From IMG/VR virus record IMGVR_UViG_3300000116_000021, positions 21,178-57,022 of that record: 35,845 nt of DNA; one strand, written 5' to 3'. Origin of the DNA: a virus. The position numbers and the translations under genes were made by a program. Shown here piece after piece: positions 15,453 through 28,995 of this stretch. How positions within the stretch are numbered: the first letter of the stretch is position 1; each line of letters starts with the position of its first letter. The notes under the pieces are model-generated. The model ran no database searches, had not been told where the DNA came from, and saw only the letters and a program-made list of their open reading frames with translations.

Positions 15453-17021
15453 CTAGAAATCCAAATACTCATCTAGATTGAAGTTTTTTTCATTATCATC
15501 TAGATCAAAATTAGAATACTTAGTCCTATCAATTGTTTGAGAATCTTCAGATGGACCCAATCTTGACATCAAATCTTCTCCCCCCAAAGCATATCGTTCC
15601 ATATTAGAAGATGAAAATGGATTGACAGTACCAGTTCCAAACAATCCTCTTCCAGAATTTCCAGTTATACCTTTAGATTTAAGAGAGTCTGGTGCAGATT
15701 TAGATGCAATACTCTTATTTGGTTTTCTACCATAAGAATCTCTAACTAAATGCATTTTAGTCAAAATTGTTTTAGGTGTCAAGTGAGTACATACATCAGC
15801 AATAATATATAAACCACTCATCTCTTTATCAAGACCTGTCTGTTCTGATGATCCTTGTGCTGGAAAATCACAATGAACAATACTTCCTGCTCGGAGTGAA
15901 TAGTCTCCATAAACTGTAACATTTACATTAAGAGTAAATAATTTATTATATGTCATCGAAGATTGAAGTATCACATCTTCTAATATTAAATTAGAATCTC
16001 TTTGTTTCTCAAGTTGTTCAGCAATTCCTCCTCCTGGCAATTCCCCTGCAGAATCAGTTTTAGTAAATCTTTTTGATAAAAGAACACCATCGGTTTCAAA
16101 TTTATTTTTAAAATCTTCAGATAATACTGGATGTTCCAATCCACCATGCAGTTTTTGATCCTCACCAACAATCTCTTGCGATTTGGTATTAAAAATATGT
16201 GTATATGTATTAAACGTCTCAAGTTTTGATCCATATGCTCCTGTAGATAGATTTTTTTTAACATCTATCGTAGTATCAGAATCAAAAGACAAAATTTTAC
16301 CATCATACCCATTCGGGATTTCAACAGTAGAATTATAGATAAATGATTTATATCCTTGCTCATCATCAAAAAGAGAATCTATAGATCTAAAATTATATCC
16401 ATCATATGTTTCATATATCAGATATCCTGCACTATTCTTAGATGATTGTGAAACACCCTTAGTGGCTATTTCTGCTAATAATCTAAATGGTTTTTTACCC
16501 TGCCCAATAAAGTTAAATTTATTTGCAGTTGCATCTATTATAATATCCTTTTTAGTTTTTAATATATCCTTTAAAATAATTCCCGCAGATTGACTAATAT
16601 CCCCCTCAAAACTTCTATAGACCTCCGTAGATAAAAAATCATCAGCAATTAACTCTAGAGATACAAGATCTAAAGTATATATTATATTATTTGATGATGA
16701 TATGATATTGCGAATTTCTCCAATATATAACGCATTATCATCAGCAAATTTTAATTTATTTCCCAAATCATCTTCTACTGTTACATGAACTTTCTCAGAA
16801 CCAACTAATTTCAATCTCTGCAAAACAGCAATGGATTCTCCAGAACCATCATCATGACCAGTATCTACAATAACTATACTAAATCTAACAGAATTATCAA
16901 GAATACTCTCATAATATTCGCAAAGAACTACTCCAGCACTAACATCAACAGATTCTGATGAAGATTTAGAATATATTACAAATTTTGAAATATTCCCAGT
17001 CTGCTTTAGTTCAGTTTCCAT
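15453..17021 (-). CDS. Baseplate hub protein (gp27-like)
   Basis: 522 residues, placed between the M23/tape-measure-like gene and cp12/gp5. N-terminal beta-rich region (KFVIYSKSSSESVDVSAGVV, FSIVIVDTGHD), a middle segment with SAGIILKDILKTKKDI, and the C-terminal module LRAGSIVHCDFP ... SGLYIIADVCTHLTPKT, then MHLVRDSYGR, which is the last domain of tail hub proteins of the gp27/gpD type. The final 80 residues are polar and probably flexible. The ATG overlaps the upstream stop by one base (TAATG). Sequence identity to T4 gp27 is not evident; the assignment rests on the C-terminal motif and position. Confidence 0.6.
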   Translation of the reverse strand: METELKQTGNISKFVIYSKSSSESVDVSAGVVLCEYYESILDNSVRFSIVIVDTGHDDGSGESIAVLQRLKLVGSEKVHVTVEDDLGNKLKFADDNALYIGEIRNIISSSNNIIYTLDLVSLELIADDFLSTEVYRSFEGDISQSAGIILKDILKTKKDIIIDATANKFNFIGQGKKPFRLLAEIATKGVSQSSKNSAGYLIYETYDGYNFRSIDSLFDDEQGYKSFIYNSTVEIPNGYDGKILSFDSDTTIDVKKNLSTGAYGSKLETFNTYTHIFNTKSQEIVGEDQKLHGGLEHPVLSEDFKNKFETDGVLLSKRFTKTDSAGELPGGGIAEQLEKQRDSNLILEDVILQSSMTYNKLFTLNVNVTVYGDYSLRAGSIVHCDFPAQGSSEQTGLDKEMSGLYIIADVCTHLTPKTILTKMHLVRDSYGRKPNKSIASKSAPDSLKSKGITGNSGRGLFGTGTVNPFSSSNMERYALGGEDLMSRLGPSEDSQTIDRTKYSNFDLDDNEKNFNLDEYLDF

Positions 17022-19750
17022 TATACTAACACCTCTCTTCTTTTGGAAGGAGAACCTCCTCCACGATTAACTGTTCTTATAACGACAGGGACAGGGACAC
17101 GAACTTCTCTATCAACTAATAATAATGTAGATCCACTACCTTCTTCGTAATTAGTATTTCTCATAAGAGTTTGAGGTTGTTGTGAATTTTGTGTTGGTAT
17201 ATATGACACTCTTTTAACTTTCCCATGATTATTTATCCAGTCAATTGGATTTACTGGACTACTAAAATCTCCATTACTAGCAGGAGCAGATTTAGATATC
17301 TCCCAGTGTAGATGAGGATCATATGTAGTTAGACTACCCCAACCAGATCCACCAACATTAGCAAGTAAGGCACCTGCTTTAAATTTATCACCAACTTTCC
17401 CTGCAGGAGGTCCATTTAAGTGACCAAAGAAATGATAAGCACCATGTACATCATCTTTCCATACAATCCAATAACCATACCCACCATCTATACTACTACC
17501 CAAAACATTGTTTACATGAGTTACTTCACCATCCAAATATGCATACATTCGAGTACCAGTTGGAGCACCAACATCAACACCTTTGTGCAATCGGGGACCG
17601 CTTCCCAAATCTCGCATACCCATGGAGGAAGTAATTTCGGCACCAGATCCCGTAGCAAATGGACTGTAAGAAGTATTGACATTTGATCCTTGTCCAAATA
17701 TCTTGTCTATTGCACTTCCTGTATTTCCTTTCAATGGCATTAGTTTTGAAGATCCTGGAAGAGTTATACCTGCAGGCGTAGGTGTTCCTGCTCCTGTTCT
17801 AGGTGCTGTTGTTGTAGGTGCTGTTGTTGTAGGTGCTCCTGCTCCTGGTGCAACTCTTTTAGGACGAGTTGATAAAAGCGTAGAGGTTTTATCAAGATCA
17901 TTAGTAACTTTTTGTGTATTTTGAGTAACATCCCTTAAAAAAGAATTCTCAATTTTCTTACTAACTTCAAACAACCTACGTGTTTTCTGATTAGGCAATT
18001 CTACAACTGTACCACCTGCAGATAATTTTTGAAGTAATATTCTCAACATATTCATAGGAGCTGGTAGTGCTGCATCAAAAAACGTAACTAAATTTTTAGC
18101 AATATCAGCAACAATTCTTCTATCTACCTTTTTACCTGTCAGTAAAGCTACACCAAGAGACATGATCTTGGATACTATACTATTATTCCTTTCTCTTAAC
18201 TTATCTGTAGACTTTTTAATTAATGCAAAAGCTCCATCTTTATCATCAACACTACCAAAAATATTTTCTGTTTTTGTTTTATTAGCTCCAGATAAATTAT
18301 CAATTCCTGAGGGAGTAAAATTTTTAATTTTTGCACTTAATGCTGCATTTTTATCAGCATTAGAATCCTCATCTTCTCCAATTTGACCACCTCCATATCT
18401 ACCTTCGATAGTATTTTTTGCTTCATTTTTTTCACTACCAGTAAGAACATTATAAAGACTTGCTCCAATTTGATCACCAATAACACCACCAATTAGACCA
18501 CCAATAGTTGATCCCGCAGCACCAAGGAGAATATTACCAATAAAAGGAACAACAGATCCAACAATACCACCAATGGCACCACCAAGAAATGTACCAAGTG
18601 CCTGACCTGCAGCCGCACCTACAGCAGCAGCTGCTGCCTTACCAACTGGTTCTTTAAATACTAAAGTTCTAATACCAAAGTCAATCAGAGGACCGACAAT
18701 AGGAATTTTACCCGCAATTCTTCCAGCACCTCTAGAAGCTACTTTTTTGCCAACCTTACCAAAAGCCTGTCCAAATCTATTTTTAGCAGCCCTTTTACCA
18801 AATCTTTGCTGATATCTTCCCGCAAGATCCTGCTGTGACCTGGCAGCGGCGGCATTAGAGGTACTTCCACCCCTAATCATTCTTTGATTGTTTAAATTAG
18901 TCCCCGAGTTAGTTAAGAGAGTTCCATTACGACTTACTCTACGATTGAATCCATTAACTGTATCAGTACGTATACCATTTCTGTTAAATCTACCCCTACT
19001 ATTAGTTCTATTACCACCTTTACCACCACCTAAAGGATTAGATCCACCAGTGCTTATCATGGCAGCGATGATTGCAAGATTCATGAATTTTACAAATAAA
19101 CCCTCAAAAGATTTTAATTTGTCAGCGGCATCCTTACCAAAAATATTTTCAGTTAGCACATTAACTTTATTAACTACTTTATATCCAATGTCAATAAATG
19201 ATACCAATTTATCAAACATTCCTATAGAAAAATCAACTAAAAAATCAAAAACTTTACCAATTTGCAATTTACTAACAATATCTGCTATTGCTGGCAAAAG
19301 ATCAATTAGTTTTATAAGTATTATTGCTCCTATCAATTTATTCATAAAACTTAGGAGATTACCAACTGGTCCATTAGTTGGTATACTAATTCCACCACCA
19401 ATAGATGATTTTTTTTCTAATTTAGATTCTTTTTCCTTTCTCTTTTTATTTTCTTTTATTCTATTCTGATTCTTTATTTTTTCTAAGTTTATTTTTACAG
19501 TCTTCTGAATAATTTTATGTATTTTTTTAGTAGTTGCTCCAATTTCACCAATATCTTCCTTTGCTTTATCATTAATACCACCTCCATCTTCTTCTGGTTC
19601 ACCTTTTACTAGATTTACAACACCAAGAATACCCTTATCATTTTTTGAAGAAGGTATAATTTTTGCTACTGGAAGTGCAATCTTTTTAGGGACTGCAATA
19701 AAATCTACAGGATCTGCAGATGGTAATAGTTTTTTAGCATTTATTGCCAT
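17021..19750 (-). CDS. Tape-measure-like tail protein with M23 peptidase domain
   Basis: 909 residues. A charged N-terminal coil (to about 125) is followed by hydrophobic helices (NLLSFMNKLIGAIILIKLID, then FVKFMNLAIIAAMI) and a Gly/Ala-zipper region (about 370-440, AAAAAVGAAAGQALGTFLGG), as in tape measure proteins. The C-terminal part is an M23/LytM zinc endopeptidase: RLHKGVD near residue 721 (His and Asp zinc ligands), HFFGHLN near 772 and DPHLHWE near 814, so all catalytic motifs are intact. The likely role is local peptidoglycan cutting during DNA injection. No lysozyme is seen in the gp5-like protein, so this domain may take over that task. One-base overlap with the hub gene downstream. 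Confidence 0.8.
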   Translation of the reverse strand: MAINAKKLLPSADPVDFIAVPKKIALPVAKIIPSSKNDKGILGVVNLVKGEPEEDGGGINDKAKEDIGEIGATTKKIHKIIQKTVKINLEKIKNQNRIKENKKRKEKESKLEKKSSIGGGISIPTNGPVGNLLSFMNKLIGAIILIKLIDLLPAIADIVSKLQIGKVFDFLVDFSIGMFDKLVSFIDIGYKVVNKVNVLTENIFGKDAADKLKSFEGLFVKFMNLAIIAAMISTGGSNPLGGGKGGNRTNSRGRFNRNGIRTDTVNGFNRRVSRNGTLLTNSGTNLNNQRMIRGGSTSNAAAARSQQDLAGRYQQRFGKRAAKNRFGQAFGKVGKKVASRGAGRIAGKIPIVGPLIDFGIRTLVFKEPVGKAAAAAVGAAAGQALGTFLGGAIGGIVGSVVPFIGNILLGAAGSTIGGLIGGVIGDQIGASLYNVLTGSEKNEAKNTIEGRYGGGQIGEDEDSNADKNAALSAKIKNFTPSGIDNLSGANKTKTENIFGSVDDKDGAFALIKKSTDKLRERNNSIVSKIMSLGVALLTGKKVDRRIVADIAKNLVTFFDAALPAPMNMLRILLQKLSAGGTVVELPNQKTRRLFEVSKKIENSFLRDVTQNTQKVTNDLDKTSTLLSTRPKRVAPGAGAPTTTAPTTTAPRTGAGTPTPAGITLPGSSKLMPLKGNTGSAIDKIFGQGSNVNTSYSPFATGSGAEITSSMGMRDLGSGPRLHKGVDVGAPTGTRMYAYLDGEVTHVNNVLGSSIDGGYGYWIVWKDDVHGAYHFFGHLNGPPAGKVGDKFKAGALLANVGGSGWGSLTTYDPHLHWEISKSAPASNGDFSSPVNPIDWINNHGKVKRVSYIPTQNSQQPQTLMRNTNYEEGSGSTLLLVDREVRVPVPVVIRTVNRGGGSPSKRREVLV

Positions 19751-19751
19751 C

Positions 19752-22259
19752 TTACTCTACCCCCAAAAGTCCGTAGATTTGAATATTCATTAACCTAGAT
19801 TCTGTCTGATAGAATGACGAAAATTCGTCAATTTCTCTAGTTCCAGATGCAACAGATCCCTGAGATTTTGGTGCTGGTGCAGGTATTCTTGTACTAATAA
19901 TATTCATTTTTGTAGTCGGTGGCGGTGGAACCTCCAATGATGGTTTAGTTATTTTAGTTTGAGCAGATTGTGATGGTGAAGAATTTTTTGGTCGTGGTTT
20001 AACTGCAGAAAGTGCTCCAGAGAATGGCGCACTTGATTTTGTAGATGGTGTTTTAATCTCTGGAATTATTAAGGAATTATCAGATTTGCCCATACCTTCA
20101 GGAGAGTTAGCACGAGACCCCTTTATCCCCCCAAGTCTAATCATATTCGATGCAGCAGATTTGCCAGATTCGCCACCAGCAATTCTATGCATTGGCATCG
20201 ATGATGGTCGAACATCCTTTGGTTTTGGCATCATATCATTACTAATCAACCAATTCCTCTCATAATTACTCATATCATTAGTAGATTTTCTCCATCCTTC
20301 CTGCATCAATTTTTTTGTTGCTTCTTGGATGAGATCTTCCATGCTATATCCAGGTTGATTATTCCAATATTTTTCATAATCGGGATGATTAGAATCCTCA
20401 GTTATTTTTGTGTATTGTTGTCTTCCTAGTGCTCTCCCCTGCCTCTCAACATCAATTGGAACTAAACCACCACCAGCAAATTTAAGACTTCCAAATGGAG
20501 TGAATGATGGCTTATTTGTTCCTCCACCCATCTTATTGAGATTTAAAAAGAATGGTGCTCCAAACTTATCAACTGCTTTTTTAGATATTACAACCTCTCC
20601 TGGTTGAGCAGCAATCAATTGGGTATCTTTACCAGCACCTTTAATCCTCTTTCCTGTAGAACCAGTTATCTTCCCTGCAGAACTATTCTGAGTTCTTCTT
20701 TTATTCAATCCACCACCAGAATAACTGGTTACTCCACCACCACCAGCAAAAGAAGGTATTCCTCTCTGCATCACTTCTTCATTTCTAAGTTGTGGTCCAC
20801 CAGGAGTTCTATCTTCCCCTGGTTTTACTATTTCTGGATTACCTTCAGCAAGTTTTTCTCTATTATTGCCAAGTTGTGTCGCAGCAACATAACCACCAAC
20901 TCCTACAGCAATAGCGGCAGCAGCATATGGATTTTTTTTAATCAGATTAAGTAATTTAGGAATACCTTTTTTCGCTATAGTAAGAGTTAATTTAGCAATT
21001 GTACCAAGAACTGTTCTAATTACTCTACCCATAGGGTTAGTAAATAATAATACGCCAGCAAGAAGTGCTGGCCACCAATCACCAATAAATTTAATTAAAG
21101 ATTTGATTTTACCCTGATTTTCTTTTTTTGAAATATAATCTACTAATTTATACAGAACTCTTCCAATAAAGACTGTTTTTAAGAAATTAAATATTCTTTC
21201 AAATAATCCCACAGTTGGAACTAAAATCTTTTTAGCAAGAGATGCTGTTTTTTTAAGTTTTTTCTCTAAATTATCTTCCTTCTTGCCACGAGTTTTATTT
21301 TCTTTAGTGTTTCTATCTTTTTCTAATTGCTTCCTAATCGCAGTGTACTGCCCCTCCATCAACTTTAAGATTGATTCTACAGTCTTGCGTATACCAGCAA
21401 TGTCTTGATTTAATGATGCTTTACGTGGTTTTGAAGGTTCTTCTGAAGGAGAAAGTGCTTTCTGCTCTTGATCTGGAGCACCAGTAATAAAGTTTTTTGC
21501 ACCTTGCAATGGAGGAGCACTACCCCTATCAACATTTCTTTTGTTGATCTTAAATCGACCAACTTTACGTTTTACTCTTTTGTATTCTTCAGTTATTAAC
21601 TCAGATTCTTCACTAGAAACCTCAGTTTTTGTCATCCTGGCTTCTAAGGCCCATGCCTTCAGATTCTGGATGTAAGTATCATAGTCAATATCAAATACAT
21701 CATCTAATTTAAGAAGTCTTAATATTCTTTCATCTATCTCTTCATTGACAAGATCATCACCACGAGTACCCTCATACATCTTCCCACTGATAGCAATAGC
21801 ACCACCTTTTTTAGGTTTAGCATTGCCCATATCTTCAAGCATAGATGGCTCATCATCAGAAGCATATGGATTATCTCGATCCTTCTCTTGCTCCTGCTCT
21901 AAGTCATCAATCTTAGGTTTTTTTATCTTTGGTAACTTTGGTTCTTTTAGTGGAGGTTTTAGTTTACTATTATCAACTACATAATACTTCCAAATATAAA
22001 GTATATAACTATTATATTTTTCTGCTTCTTTTGAATTTTGTGGGAATATAACTGAGGGTGAAGGATAATCTTTCTCAGACTTATCCCAAGCCCTCATGAA
22101 TATATCATGAACTCTATCAGGATCTACTCCAAACTCATTTGAAATTAAAAACTTACTACGCGCAATATATCCGCCAATAGACGCCCTATAACTGCCCTTT
22201 TTCCCAAGAACTCGTGTGTAAGGTATAATCTCTGATATGTAATTTGGTATATTTGCCAT
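19752..22259 (-). CDS. Second tape-measure-like tail protein
   Basis: 835 residues. The N-terminal 100 residues look globular (NYISEIIPYTRVLGKKGSYR, EFGVDPDRVHDIFMRAWDK), then charged coil (about 265-345), a hydrophobic block (KSLIKFIGDWWPALLAGVLL, NPYAAAAIAVGVGGYVAATQ) and a segment AAQPGEVVISKKAVDKFGAP that is common in phage tape measure proteins. The C-terminal third is Pro/Ser-rich and disordered. ATG 22259 overlaps the stop of the 57-codon ORF by one base, so it sits right after the tail assembly chaperone genes, the place where tape measure genes are usually found. Whether this or the M23 protein corresponds to T4 gp29 cannot be decided by eye. Confidence 0.6.
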   Translation of the reverse strand: MANIPNYISEIIPYTRVLGKKGSYRASIGGYIARSKFLISNEFGVDPDRVHDIFMRAWDKSEKDYPSPSVIFPQNSKEAEKYNSYILYIWKYYVVDNSKLKPPLKEPKLPKIKKPKIDDLEQEQEKDRDNPYASDDEPSMLEDMGNAKPKKGGAIAISGKMYEGTRGDDLVNEEIDERILRLLKLDDVFDIDYDTYIQNLKAWALEARMTKTEVSSEESELITEEYKRVKRKVGRFKINKRNVDRGSAPPLQGAKNFITGAPDQEQKALSPSEEPSKPRKASLNQDIAGIRKTVESILKLMEGQYTAIRKQLEKDRNTKENKTRGKKEDNLEKKLKKTASLAKKILVPTVGLFERIFNFLKTVFIGRVLYKLVDYISKKENQGKIKSLIKFIGDWWPALLAGVLLFTNPMGRVIRTVLGTIAKLTLTIAKKGIPKLLNLIKKNPYAAAAIAVGVGGYVAATQLGNNREKLAEGNPEIVKPGEDRTPGGPQLRNEEVMQRGIPSFAGGGGVTSYSGGGLNKRRTQNSSAGKITGSTGKRIKGAGKDTQLIAAQPGEVVISKKAVDKFGAPFFLNLNKMGGGTNKPSFTPFGSLKFAGGGLVPIDVERQGRALGRQQYTKITEDSNHPDYEKYWNNQPGYSMEDLIQEATKKLMQEGWRKSTNDMSNYERNWLISNDMMPKPKDVRPSSMPMHRIAGGESGKSAASNMIRLGGIKGSRANSPEGMGKSDNSLIIPEIKTPSTKSSAPFSGALSAVKPRPKNSSPSQSAQTKITKPSLEVPPPPTTKMNIISTRIPAPAPKSQGSVASGTREIDEFSSFYQTESRLMNIQIYGLLGVE

Positions 22260-22432
22260 TAGTAGCTATTAGATTGTTGCTGCGCTTTGAGTTTTTCTTC
22301 TTCCAAATGAGCCTTCAATAGTGCAACATAAACTTCTCGCTCCCATGGTATTAAATTTTCAACTTCAGTTAGTGAGTATTTATGGTACTGCAACAAAGCA
22401 AAATTTAATTTATAATAATTTTCCAAATCCAT
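22259..22432 (-). CDS. 57-residue tail assembly chaperone ORF (frameshift partner of gp26)
   Basis: MDLENYYKLNFALLQYHKYS then LTEVENLIPWEREVYVALLK and a charged Q/E/K tail. The pattern 'PWERE-V/I-Y-V-x-L-L' is typical of the small downstream partner of tail assembly chaperones, and the gene holds the position of T4 gene 51. No Shine-Dalgarno precedes its ATG. The frame is open upstream through the slippery site at the end of gp26, so the main product is probably a gp26 fusion of about 301 residues. It overlaps the next gene's ATG by one base. Confidence 0.75.
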   Translation of the reverse strand: MDLENYYKLNFALLQYHKYSLTEVENLIPWEREVYVALLKAHLEEEKLKAQQQSNSY

Positions 22433-22443
22433 GTGAGCGAGGG

Positions 22444-22471
22444 CTATGCGAAAAAACTAGATAAACCCTCC
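22444..22471 (-). promoter_or_regulatory. Programmed -1 frameshift signal (slippery site with SD-like stimulator)
   Basis: Minus strand: GGAGGG (22466-22471), 9 bases of spacer, then T TTT TTC (22450-22456) in the gp26 frame, then GCA and TAG. The heptamer fits X XXY YYZ. Slipping by -1 leads into CGC ATA GCC CTC GCT CAC ATG, which is the frame of the 57-codon ORF. The upstream SD-like element at this distance resembles the stimulator of E. coli dnaX. No strong downstream hairpin is seen. Confidence 0.8.
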
Positions 22472-23210: not shown

Positions 23211-24050
23211 TTAAAAGATACTACTAGAACCCAAGTTTGTAGTAAAAGGGTAGTTTGGTGGAGGATTAGAATTCCAAACATCTGTAATTGGAAGATTTTT
23301 AAATGATGCGTCAGTGTTAACAAGATTAGGCAAATTTAACGATCCATCAAATAATTTTTCTTGTGGAATACTATCAAGGATAGATCCCGTTGAAGAATTG
23401 GAAAAGAAGTTTAGACCATAGTTATAATCAGTTTGAGATTTTGTTTGAGTAATAAAATATCGAGTATAGTTCATAGATACCGTCACCTTCAATAATTGAG
23501 ATGTATCATAACTAACAGGAATAGTATTCATCGATTTTGGAAAAACATCAACAAACTCATATTCTAATACATTTGAAAATAGATCATTTCCAGATCCAAG
23601 ATCCTTTTCAAACTTTACAACTTTCATAGTAGATTTATAATCGTCTGGAAATCTAGCTCTTTGTACTATTTTATTCCTTAACTGTCGATCAGTGTAATCA
23701 CTCTCACCAACAATATACTTCATCCAGTAATCAAAAAATCGTATCTGAAGATAATTACTATCAAGAGTAACTAAAAATGTCAAATCAATAGAATCATCAT
23801 ACAACCTAGTATAAGCATGTCTCTCGATGATTCCATGGTAATCCCTGCTAGTTTCAACTGTTGCTATGCTTGACCCAGGAAGTGATGCTTCCATGCAAGT
23901 TAGCTCAAGTAGTTCCCCATCAACTTTTGGAGAAGTTCCAAATGATGGTTGTGGCATTATAACAGAGTACACAGAAGTTAAAGAAGGATTTAAAATCCTA
24001 CTTTTTAACTTATTCATACTAACACCAAAGTTTATACCTAAGTTTGGCAT
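23211..24050 (-). CDS. 54: Baseplate tail tube initiator (gp54-like)
   Basis: 279 residues. Core motifs RLYDDSIDLTFLVTLDSNYL, FFDYWMKYIVGE, EYEFVDVFPKSMNTIPVSYD and KVTVSMNYTRYF resemble the tube fold shared by gp19, gp48 and gp54. The C-terminus is Pro/Asn-rich. The gp48 and gp53 homologues are encoded on the plus strand nearby, which makes gp54 the natural missing partner of the tube-initiation complex. The 43-base gap to gp4 holds divergent signals; no Shine-Dalgarno is evident before its ATG. Confidence 0.7.
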   Translation of the reverse strand: MPNLGINFGVSMNKLKSRILNPSLTSVYSVIMPQPSFGTSPKVDGELLELTCMEASLPGSSIATVETSRDYHGIIERHAYTRLYDDSIDLTFLVTLDSNYLQIRFFDYWMKYIVGESDYTDRQLRNKIVQRARFPDDYKSTMKVVKFEKDLGSGNDLFSNVLEYEFVDVFPKSMNTIPVSYDTSQLLKVTVSMNYTRYFITQTKSQTDYNYGLNFFSNSSTGSILDSIPQEKLFDGSLNLPNLVNTDASFKNLPITDVWNSNPPPNYPFTTNLGSSSIF

Positions 24051-26616: not shown

Positions 26617-28995
26617 ATGGCAAATTATTTTAGTCAAGTACCATTCTTAGCATATATTTCACGAGATACTGAAAAAAATACTCTTAATGACTATACTGTT
26701 GTCAAGAACTTATTTAAGAGAGCAAAGATAAGAGATGATATATTTCAAAATGTAAGTTATTTTGATAAGTATCAAGTTAAAGGAGATGAGCGCCCCGATC
26801 AAATTGCACAAAAAGTATATAATGATTCTTCATTAGATTGGGTCGTATTATTAGCAAATAACATTCAAAATTATTATGATGAATGGCCCAAATCACAATT
26901 GGCATTCGATAAATATCTTATAAAAAAATATGGTTCATATGATAATCTTTATGACATTCATCACTATGAAACTGAAAAAGCAATGTCAAGAGACGGTCAT
27001 ACCATTGTAGAATCTGGTATAGAAGTTGATGAAGGTTTTTTTAAAGCACCCGAATATGATCTTGAGAGAGATACAAGTATAATTTTACCTTCAGAAATAC
27101 CTGGAAACTTTGCATCAGCAACAGCAGAATACGATAATGGAAGTGGAGAAATTACAAAATTATCCATTGTAAGTGCAGGATCTGGATATACTAGCTTTGC
27201 AGAAGTTACCATTGAAGATCCCCCATTACCAAGAAGAGGCATTGTATCAGTTCAATTAAATGTCCCCCCAGATGAAAGAGAAGTTGGAGCAATAACACTT
27301 GTAGATTCTGGTACTGGATATACATATCAACCAAAAATAACATTTGATGATCCCCCACCAACAGTAACTGCAGAATTAGAAGCCGTTATCGGTGTTGGAG
27401 GAACAATACAAAGCGTTGGAATTGCATCAGCAGGAGATGGATATACGTTTATTCCAATTATAACATTCCCACCACCACCAAATATAATTGAAAGTGCAAT
27501 CTTTGTATCTGATACAACAATTACTGTTGAAAGTGGTTTTGAGGGTTTGTTCTTAAATGCAACAGGAACCAGATTATTTACATGCCATGGTGCAAACTCA
27601 TATACGAATGGAGTAATTCAACAATATGAACTATCATCTGCCCATGATATGTCAACTGCATCATTATTAAGATCTTTAACAGTAAATATCAATACGTTAA
27701 CATTTCAATATTGTACTGGTGTAGAATTTAGACCAGATGGAACAACAATGTACGTAAGTGGTCTTACAAACTCTGGTAATAAACTAGCACAGTACAATCT
27801 ATCCACACCTTGGGATATTAGCACCGCATCATTGGATGGAAGTATATCTATGCCAGCGATGGCAGGTATGAGAATACAAGATACTGGAGAACACATTTTT
27901 ATTGTCGATGTTGAAGATCCAGATACCATTAAAAAATATCAATGCACTGTAAACTGGGACATAACATCAATGTTCCCACTCCCAGTTCAAACTGCAAATA
28001 TTTCAATTATTTGTCAACCCAACGAATCATCTATTCGGGGATTCTCATTTAAAGATGATGGCACAAAAATGTATATTTCTGGTACTGATAATAATTCAGT
28101 ATTTGTAATCACATTAACAAATGCTTGGGATATTAGTGGTCTAACTCTTTTAGGGACTCTAAATGTTCAAAATAGTAGTGGAGACTCAACACCATTAGAT
28201 GTGTATACAAATCCATATGAAACTCTATTTTTTATTGGTGGAGCAATTAACAGAAAAATTTACACATATAATACGGATGTTACTGCATCAGCAACAGCAG
28301 AAGTTGGTATTGGAACTAGAGCAGAAACTATTATAAATGTAACTGTAACAAAACCTGGGGCTGGTTACACTACTACACCTCTACCACAAATCCAAATTCA
28401 ACCCCCAATTCCAGATAGAACAGCAAAAGGATATGTTACAATTGTTAATGGTTCAGTATCTGACATTATAATGCAAGACCGTGGATACAACTATAGAACA
28501 GCACCAACTGCAATTATAGAAGATCCATTTACTCCAATTACTGCAACAGCAAATGTGAAGACTGAGAATGGATTTGTAACTGAACTTAAATTGACAAATC
28601 CAGGAAGAGGATACAATTCTTCTCCTCAATTATTCTTCAGTAAACCTGGTCCGCTTTATACACCATCATTCGGTGAAGTATATGAGCGCGATGGACAAGA
28701 GTGGAAGTTTGATGGATATAACTGGAGACGTAGGTTAACATTTGGAACAATATATTATGATGATACTGCAGATGAGATATTAGAAATACCTGGAGCAGCA
28801 TCATCAAATGTAGTAACAAACTATGAGTATGAAGAGAGATTAGAGAATAAAAAAAGATTAATTTACTTACTAAAACCAGAATACTTATCAATGATATTCA
28901 ATGACTTAGATGATATTATGCCATATAAAAAAGGTTCTGAGCAATATGTGTCTCAGAACCTTAAAAGGGGAGATAACCCCAGATTATACAATTAA
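26617..28995 (+). CDS. 53: Baseplate wedge protein gp53 with beta-propeller-like insert
   Basis: 792 residues, several times the length of T4 gp53. Residues 1-140 (YFSQVPFLAYISRD, QKVYNDSSLDWVVLLANNIQ, NYYDEWPKSQLAFDKYLIKK) are the gp53 wedge domain. Three G-x-GYT-x-x-P motifs follow (about 186-280), then about 290-556 hold five degenerate repeats of 45-55 residues with 'F-x-x-D-G-T-x-M-Y-V-S-G ... QY-x-L-S-T-x-W-D-I-S-T-A-S-L', a beta-propeller-like pattern. Three more G-x-G/N-Y motifs come after (about 577-673), and then a conserved C-terminal end (EERLENKKRLIYLLKPEYLS). The extra region probably decorates the baseplate surface. Its last codons overlap an antisense terminator for gp32. Confidence 0.85.
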   Translation: MANYFSQVPFLAYISRDTEKNTLNDYTVVKNLFKRAKIRDDIFQNVSYFDKYQVKGDERPDQIAQKVYNDSSLDWVVLLANNIQNYYDEWPKSQLAFDKYLIKKYGSYDNLYDIHHYETEKAMSRDGHTIVESGIEVDEGFFKAPEYDLERDTSIILPSEIPGNFASATAEYDNGSGEITKLSIVSAGSGYTSFAEVTIEDPPLPRRGIVSVQLNVPPDEREVGAITLVDSGTGYTYQPKITFDDPPPTVTAELEAVIGVGGTIQSVGIASAGDGYTFIPIITFPPPPNIIESAIFVSDTTITVESGFEGLFLNATGTRLFTCHGANSYTNGVIQQYELSSAHDMSTASLLRSLTVNINTLTFQYCTGVEFRPDGTTMYVSGLTNSGNKLAQYNLSTPWDISTASLDGSISMPAMAGMRIQDTGEHIFIVDVEDPDTIKKYQCTVNWDITSMFPLPVQTANISIICQPNESSIRGFSFKDDGTKMYISGTDNNSVFVITLTNAWDISGLTLLGTLNVQNSSGDSTPLDVYTNPYETLFFIGGAINRKIYTYNTDVTASATAEVGIGTRAETIINVTVTKPGAGYTTTPLPQIQIQPPIPDRTAKGYVTIVNGSVSDIIMQDRGYNYRTAPTAIIEDPFTPITATANVKTENGFVTELKLTNPGRGYNSSPQLFFSKPGPLYTPSFGEVYERDGQEWKFDGYNWRRRLTFGTIYYDDTADEILEIPGAASSNVVTNYEYEERLENKKRLIYLLKPEYLSMIFNDLDDIMPYKKGSEQYVSQNLKRGDNPRLYN
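28927..28960 (-). terminator. Intrinsic terminator of gp32, inside gp53 coding end
   Basis: On the minus strand a perfect 9-bp stem GGTTCTGAG/CTCAGAACC with a 10-base loop is followed at once by six T (28927-28932). It lies 56 bases after the gp32 stop codon and within the last 25 codons of the opposing gp53 gene. On the plus strand the stem is followed by TTAAAA, so it would terminate poorly there. Confidence 0.88.

Follow-up and report, generated by a model that had tools for sequence, protein, structure and literature searches.

A putative -1 frameshift site that would join gp26 to a gp51-like extension in a T4-like phage

The gene for the gp26 homologue of a T4-like ocean cyanophage is followed, 11 nt past its stop codon, by the ATG of a 57-codon ORF, and the question that this locus raises is whether the two are separate genes or one gene that is read in two ways. 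The window, by which we mean the whole analysed stretch of 35,845 nucleotides, comes from a virus record of 57,022 bases (IMG/VR IMGVR_UViG_3300000116_000021) and contains T4-like tail genes. The original prediction was that ribosomes slip into the -1 frame at the end of gp26 and thereby fuse it to the short ORF. Having compared the window with its relatives, we consider it very probable, as far as sequence evidence can tell, that a programmed -1 frameshift makes a short tail assembly chaperone (TAC-N) and a long one (TAC-NC) from gp26 and its extension. Direct support comes from the slippery signal, its conservation, the coding constraint on the -1 frame and a fused homologue in T4.

The gp26 3' end and the neighbouring genes

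Read on the minus strand, the 3' end of gp26 consists of GGAGGG, a 9-nt spacer (TTTATCTAG), T TTT TTC, GCA and TAG, in agreement with the predicted zero-frame heptamer two codons before the stop and the predicted Shine-Dalgarno (SD)-like element 9 bases upstream of it. After a -1 slip the reading continues with CGC ATA GCC CTC GCT CAC ATG GAT, that is RIALAH and then M, so that the six stop-free codons said to lead into the ATG of the 57-codon ORF are indeed there, and the frame stays free of stops up to the TAA. The expected lengths of 239 aa for gp26 and about 301 aa for the fusion (238 + 63 = 301 aa) were likewise obtained. As had been noted, no SD-like sequence precedes the ATG of the 57-codon ORF in the window, and the following 835-aa gene overlaps by one base, its ATG beginning at 22259, the last base of the TAA. 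The main ORFs of the window, 9,887 codons in all, contain in-frame TTTTTTC once, at this gp26 end, and in-frame TTTTTTT twice elsewhere. A second in-frame XXXYYYZ sequence, GGGTTTA, lies 22 nt before the stop; it is found in a minority of loci only and was attributed to chance. The coordinates of all features are collected in Table 1.

Table 1. Features of the gp26 locus in the window
Feature	Position	Strand	Basis or remark
Tail tube protein	23211..24050	-	upstream of gp26; PHROG 45 E 5.4e-33, PF23849 E 5.1e-16
gp26 homologue, proposed TAC-N, 239 aa	22444..23163	-	PF12322 E 1.4e-72, PHROG 150 E 6.5e-77
SD-like GGAGGG, proposed stimulator	22466..22471 (read 22471-22466)	-	9 nt upstream of heptamer
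Slippery heptamer (proposed site of the -1 slip), T TTT TTC	22450..22456 (read 22456-22450)	-	sequence and relatives
gp26 zero-frame stop TAG	22444..22446	-	sequence
-1 frame extension, 63 codons	22262..22450	-	proposed TAC-C (gp51 C-terminal part); stop TAA 22261-22259
57-codon ORF as originally drawn	22259..22432	-	starts at ATG 22432
835-aa gene after the 57-codon ORF	19752..22259	-	candidate tape measure by position
909-aa gene with peptidase M23 domain	17021..19750	-	next after the 835-aa gene

The 835-aa product has a hydrophobic middle part, and searches of PHROG, Pfam and NCBIfam matched it to no named tape measure family, only to PHROGs without that function; its position makes it a plausible tape measure protein. 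No informative NCBIfam match was obtained for gp26, for its extension or for the 835-aa protein. In the 909-aa protein the M23 peptidase domain is C-terminal, and there are weak matches to tape measure PHROGs, so it could be a tape measure or a tail lysin. Elsewhere in the window (26617-28995, plus strand) lies a gene for a 792-aa gp53-like baseplate wedge protein with a long insert in its middle that has repeat-like stretches, and this insert matches several virion structural PHROGs.

Conservation of the heptamer and coding constraint on the -1 frame

Relatives were gathered from IMG/VR and from phage records and comprised 252 loci with a readable gp26 end, which were reduced to 150 non-redundant loci by removal of near-duplicates; T4, whose genes are separate, and a Stenotrophomonas phage locus that has lost one T (L177) were left out before the heptamer was counted in these 150. 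The collection includes cyanophages and phages of Aeromonas, Vibrio, Stenotrophomonas and Sinorhizobium, and scans with the gp26 of Vibrio D481, Aeromonas AS-zj and Stenotrophomonas as query returned 0, 4 and 2 loci, respectively. An alignment of the relatives' gp26 3' ends had been set beforehand as the test of the prediction. The prediction passed it: the heptamer was present in 148/150 relatives, the SD-like word in 140/148, and an open -1 frame in 250/252. The heptamer was TTTTTTC in 142 relatives and TTTTTTT in 6, in counts that, like the codon counts below, ignore phylogeny and span protein identities down to about 28%. It was missing from the Vibrio phages SD25 and D506, in which the -1 frame is still open. 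The gp26 stop lies 7, 10, 13, 16 or 31 nt past the first base of the heptamer, the heptamer being held constant while the stop position shifts.

The conserved Phe-Phe dipeptide was encoded with little freedom. Its first codon was TTT in 148/148 relatives and its second TTC in 142/148; the codon before it ends in T always, since the heptamer is defined that way. In the rest of gp26, TTC makes up 29% of Phe codons, and among the other Phe-Phe dipeptides of the same genes (n = 144) T TTT TTC was found 0 times and T TTT TTT 3 times. Codon choice is the clearest signal beyond chance that we could read from these sequences.

A side group of loci lacks a canonical XXXYYYZ. In SD25, D506 and Klebsiella phage Menlow (Ackermannviridae; L087, L088 and L260) the sequences GTTTTTC, CTTTTC and ATTTTC stand in its place, and the -1 frame runs 161-176 nt past the gp26 stop.

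Openness beyond the gp26 stop for at least 100 nt was a property of the -1 frame (250/252 loci) and never of the +1 frame (0/252). The two loci that were not open are L177 and one in which the contig ends (L209), and T4 is counted among the 250, but its open frame is gene 25 and not TAC-C. In an alignment of 40 sequences the linker that precedes the ATG of the window was conserved as Arg/Leu-Ile-x-Leu-x-His and the Met was not; the His at linker position 6 was kept in 131/148 relatives, through both CAT and CAC codons. The pN/pS of the linker was 0.55 in the -1 frame versus 1.08 and 2.2 in the other two frames, and that of the body of the extension was 0.25 in the -1 frame. These values indicate that the -1 frame is under protein constraint, also upstream of the ATG.

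These data bear on the possibility that the 57-codon ORF is a gene of its own, which ribosomes would reach from the gp26 stop through reinitiation or coupling, the heptamer being incidental. Such a gene would find its start in the nearby ATG of the window and in the ATG that 115/148 relatives have within the first 15 codons, and gp51 is often annotated as its own gene in GenBank records; however, 19/148 relatives have no ATG, GTG or TTG in those 15 codons, residue 7 is Met in just 73/148, and among all relatives an SD-like word precedes just 2 ATGs. It would account neither for a heptamer that stays though the stop moves nor for the fusion of both parts in T4. We rejected the separate gene, to which we assign a very low probability, because its start codons are unconserved and the constraint begins before the ATG. 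The ATG is probably not a true start, as judged from these comparisons, and reinitiation could make some free 57-aa protein.

Stimulatory elements around the heptamer

An SD-like word 6-20 nt upstream of the heptamer was present in the 140 relatives mentioned above, versus 13% of control windows taken within these genes. GAG was used for the Glu codon of this word in 77% of cases versus 30% elsewhere, and this preference is the better evidence for the SD-like element, because conserved Leu-Glu-Gly-Leu residues supply part of the word. In Escherichia coli dnaX, an SD-like sequence about 10 nt upstream of the -1 heptamer AAAAAAG acts together with a strong downstream hairpin. The upstream element of the window is alike, whereas the hairpin of dnaX has no counterpart there: folding of the sequence downstream of the heptamer gave -2.2 kcal/mol (z +0.59). 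The SD-like element would therefore be the sole recognised stimulator in the window.

Among the relatives, RNA folding downstream of the heptamer exceeded that of synonymous shuffles on average (mean z -2.06). In P-SSM2, S-SSM7 and their kin a hairpin begins 5-8 nt past the heptamer. Its seven-pair core was complete in 35 sequences versus a mean of 7.7 and a maximum of 14 in shuffles that ignore relatedness, and two of the pairs change on both sides (ATGGCTC/GAGTCAT, ATGTCTC/GAGACAT, ATGGTTC/GAATCAT). Among individual loci, L090, L091 and related cyanophage loci carry a strong covarying hairpin 5-35 nt past the heptamer, for example GTATGTCTCA...TGAGACATAC, which the lineage of the window lacks, and other lineages have a small palindrome, GGTCCATATGGACC/GATCCATATGGATC, past the heptamer.

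The same elements help to weigh a second explanation, in which RNA polymerase slips at the T-run, adds or drops a base of the mRNA, and the long form is made from edited transcripts. A conserved run of six or seven T is what this would need, but six bases are short for slippage by RNA polymerase, the strict X XXY YYZ phasing with its final C is a constraint at the level of codons, and both the upstream SD-like element (6-20 nt away) and the hairpins of some lineages act on ribosomes. We regard it as even less probable than a separate gene. Least credible of all is the idea that one ORF was divided by decay of a fused gene or by faulty sequencing, for which the one-T-short L177 record could be cited and which is refuted by the recurrence of the same two-frame layout in 250/252 loci. 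In L177 (2245-2265) five Ts precede the C where the near-identical L176 has six, and the missing T probably reflects a mutant or an error in sequencing the homopolymer.

The predicted products and related decoding systems

Sequence homology to the T4 gp26/gp51 family was found for both parts of the predicted fusion. The gp26 protein belongs to the Pfam family T4_baseplate and aligned with T4 gp26 with a probability of 98.9 over 204 columns (hhalign). PHROG 634, named 'baseplate hub assembly catalyst', matched the extension in 40/40 members (E 5.9e-25 for the window), and the extension also matched the far end of the PHROG 150 profile. Residues 7-294 of the fusion aligned with residues 1-249 of T4 gp51 (243 columns, probability 97.3, E 2e-11, hhalign), the FF-R junction landing inside gp51. 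Since the fusion matches T4 gp51 end to end, T4 gp51 is the natural in-frame counterpart of the predicted frameshift product. An AlphaFold model of gp26 had a pLDDT of 84.9; Foldseek gave it no significant E-value among PDB structures, and the top probability (0.72; E 1.1, 60 columns) among the 50 PDB matches listed was that of the HK97 tail assembly chaperone 2OB9, a match that lends weak support to the chaperone fold. The gp26 profile had no matches among PDB sequences. We think that gp26 is probably a tail assembly chaperone and not a hub subunit.

TAC genes of T4-like phages were reportedly identified by Vladimirov, Gautam & Davidson in 2022 (Virology 566:9-15), whose abstract is said to describe frameshifting as apparently conserved in several groups of T4-like phages, with genes 26 and 51 in use in the T4 group. 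A frameshifted TAC in T4-like phages is already known in substance since that year. As the 2022 work is summarised in later papers, some T4-like phages carry a short gene and a longer fused gene (PMC10885494), and it is cited as the source for slippery polyT signals in the TAC-N genes of such phages (PMC12846349); as far as these summaries go, the gene pair (26/51) and the products (TAC-N and TAC-NC) are the same as ours and nothing essential is different. The present analysis adds the sample size, the statistics on codons and start codons, and the stimulators that are specific to lineages. We found no paper in the literature on ribosome profiling of cyanophages that touches this locus.

The predicted system is like that of phage lambda, in which ribosomes slip into the -1 frame close to the 3' end of a short gene, at GGGAAAG, and short and long chaperone forms result. 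In lambda this gene has the tail tube gene on one side and the tape measure gene on the other; in the window the upstream tube gene was matched, and the downstream 835-aa gene is a tape measure candidate by position. According to the passages of a 2016 review that treat this frameshift, the tape measure of lambda is coated by gpG and gpG-T, with the T part bringing in the tube, and long-tailed phages keep the frameshift 'except T4' (PMC5009743). In the scheme that we propose, gp26 and the downstream 63-codon stretch would be one gene with two readings. The majority of ribosomes would halt at TAG and release TAC-N (gp26), and a smaller fraction, delayed at T TTT TTC by the aid of the SD-like GGAGGG, would slip one base back and make TAC-NC. 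By analogy with lambda, the tape measure protein may be covered by many copies of TAC-N and few of TAC-NC, the latter recruiting the tail tube protein through its C-terminal domain. We infer the slippage, its rate and the chaperone action.

The wider claim that T4-type gp26 and its partner are a frameshifted chaperone pair has to be divided. For the phages considered here it is supported by conservation, the open frame, constraint, codon choice, the SD-like element and collinearity with gp51; it does not hold for T4, in which genes 26 and 51 encode homologous proteins but are two separate, divergent genes without a frameshift, gp51 holding both domains. Two independent genes were found in T4 and in Aeromonas phage 31, whereas the window has one overlapping reading unit, and the independent genes are a feature of the T4 subgroup and not of the whole gp26/gp51 family. 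In a large environmental sample, T4-like phages other than those of the T4 group very probably retain the frameshift of the lambda type, which the 2016 review lists as absent from T4 (PMC5009743). It also follows that 'gp51, baseplate hub assembly catalyst', which is listed alone or missed in many cyanophage records, should be annotated as the C-terminal domain of the predicted fusion. The TAC locus of Vandenendeviridae and Andersonviridae, as described for phage Adele, resembles the window in that the 3' end of TAC-N has a T-run with a conserved -1 frameshift signal; it differs in its motif, GTTTTT, and in the virus families concerned (PMC12846349).

A broader interpretation, which we offer tentatively and hold to be slightly less than an even chance, is that a single homologous chaperone gene has at least four modes of decoding across the T4-like phages and their more distant relatives, with stimulators swapped between lineages so that a required short-to-long ratio is kept. 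The modes would be slippage by -1 on T6C helped by an SD-like element (as in the window), such slippage with a downstream hairpin in addition (the P-SSM2/S-SSM7 type), slippage by +1 at NCC CGA (Thornevirus-like) and two separate genes (T4).

Three loci, from Listeria phage LIS04 (L089), Bacillus phage SP-15 (L263) and Streptococcus phage GXN1 (L264), have the +1 frame open and not the -1 frame, for 217, 199 and 268 nt, respectively, past the gp26-like stop. Their +1 tails are TAC-C-like, with ..FERxEMYSRLL.. in LIS04 and SP-15 and ..SVTDIESM.. in GXN1. The T6 run is not kept in them, and NCC CGA TTY, common to all three shortly before the stop, looks like a +1 slip site.
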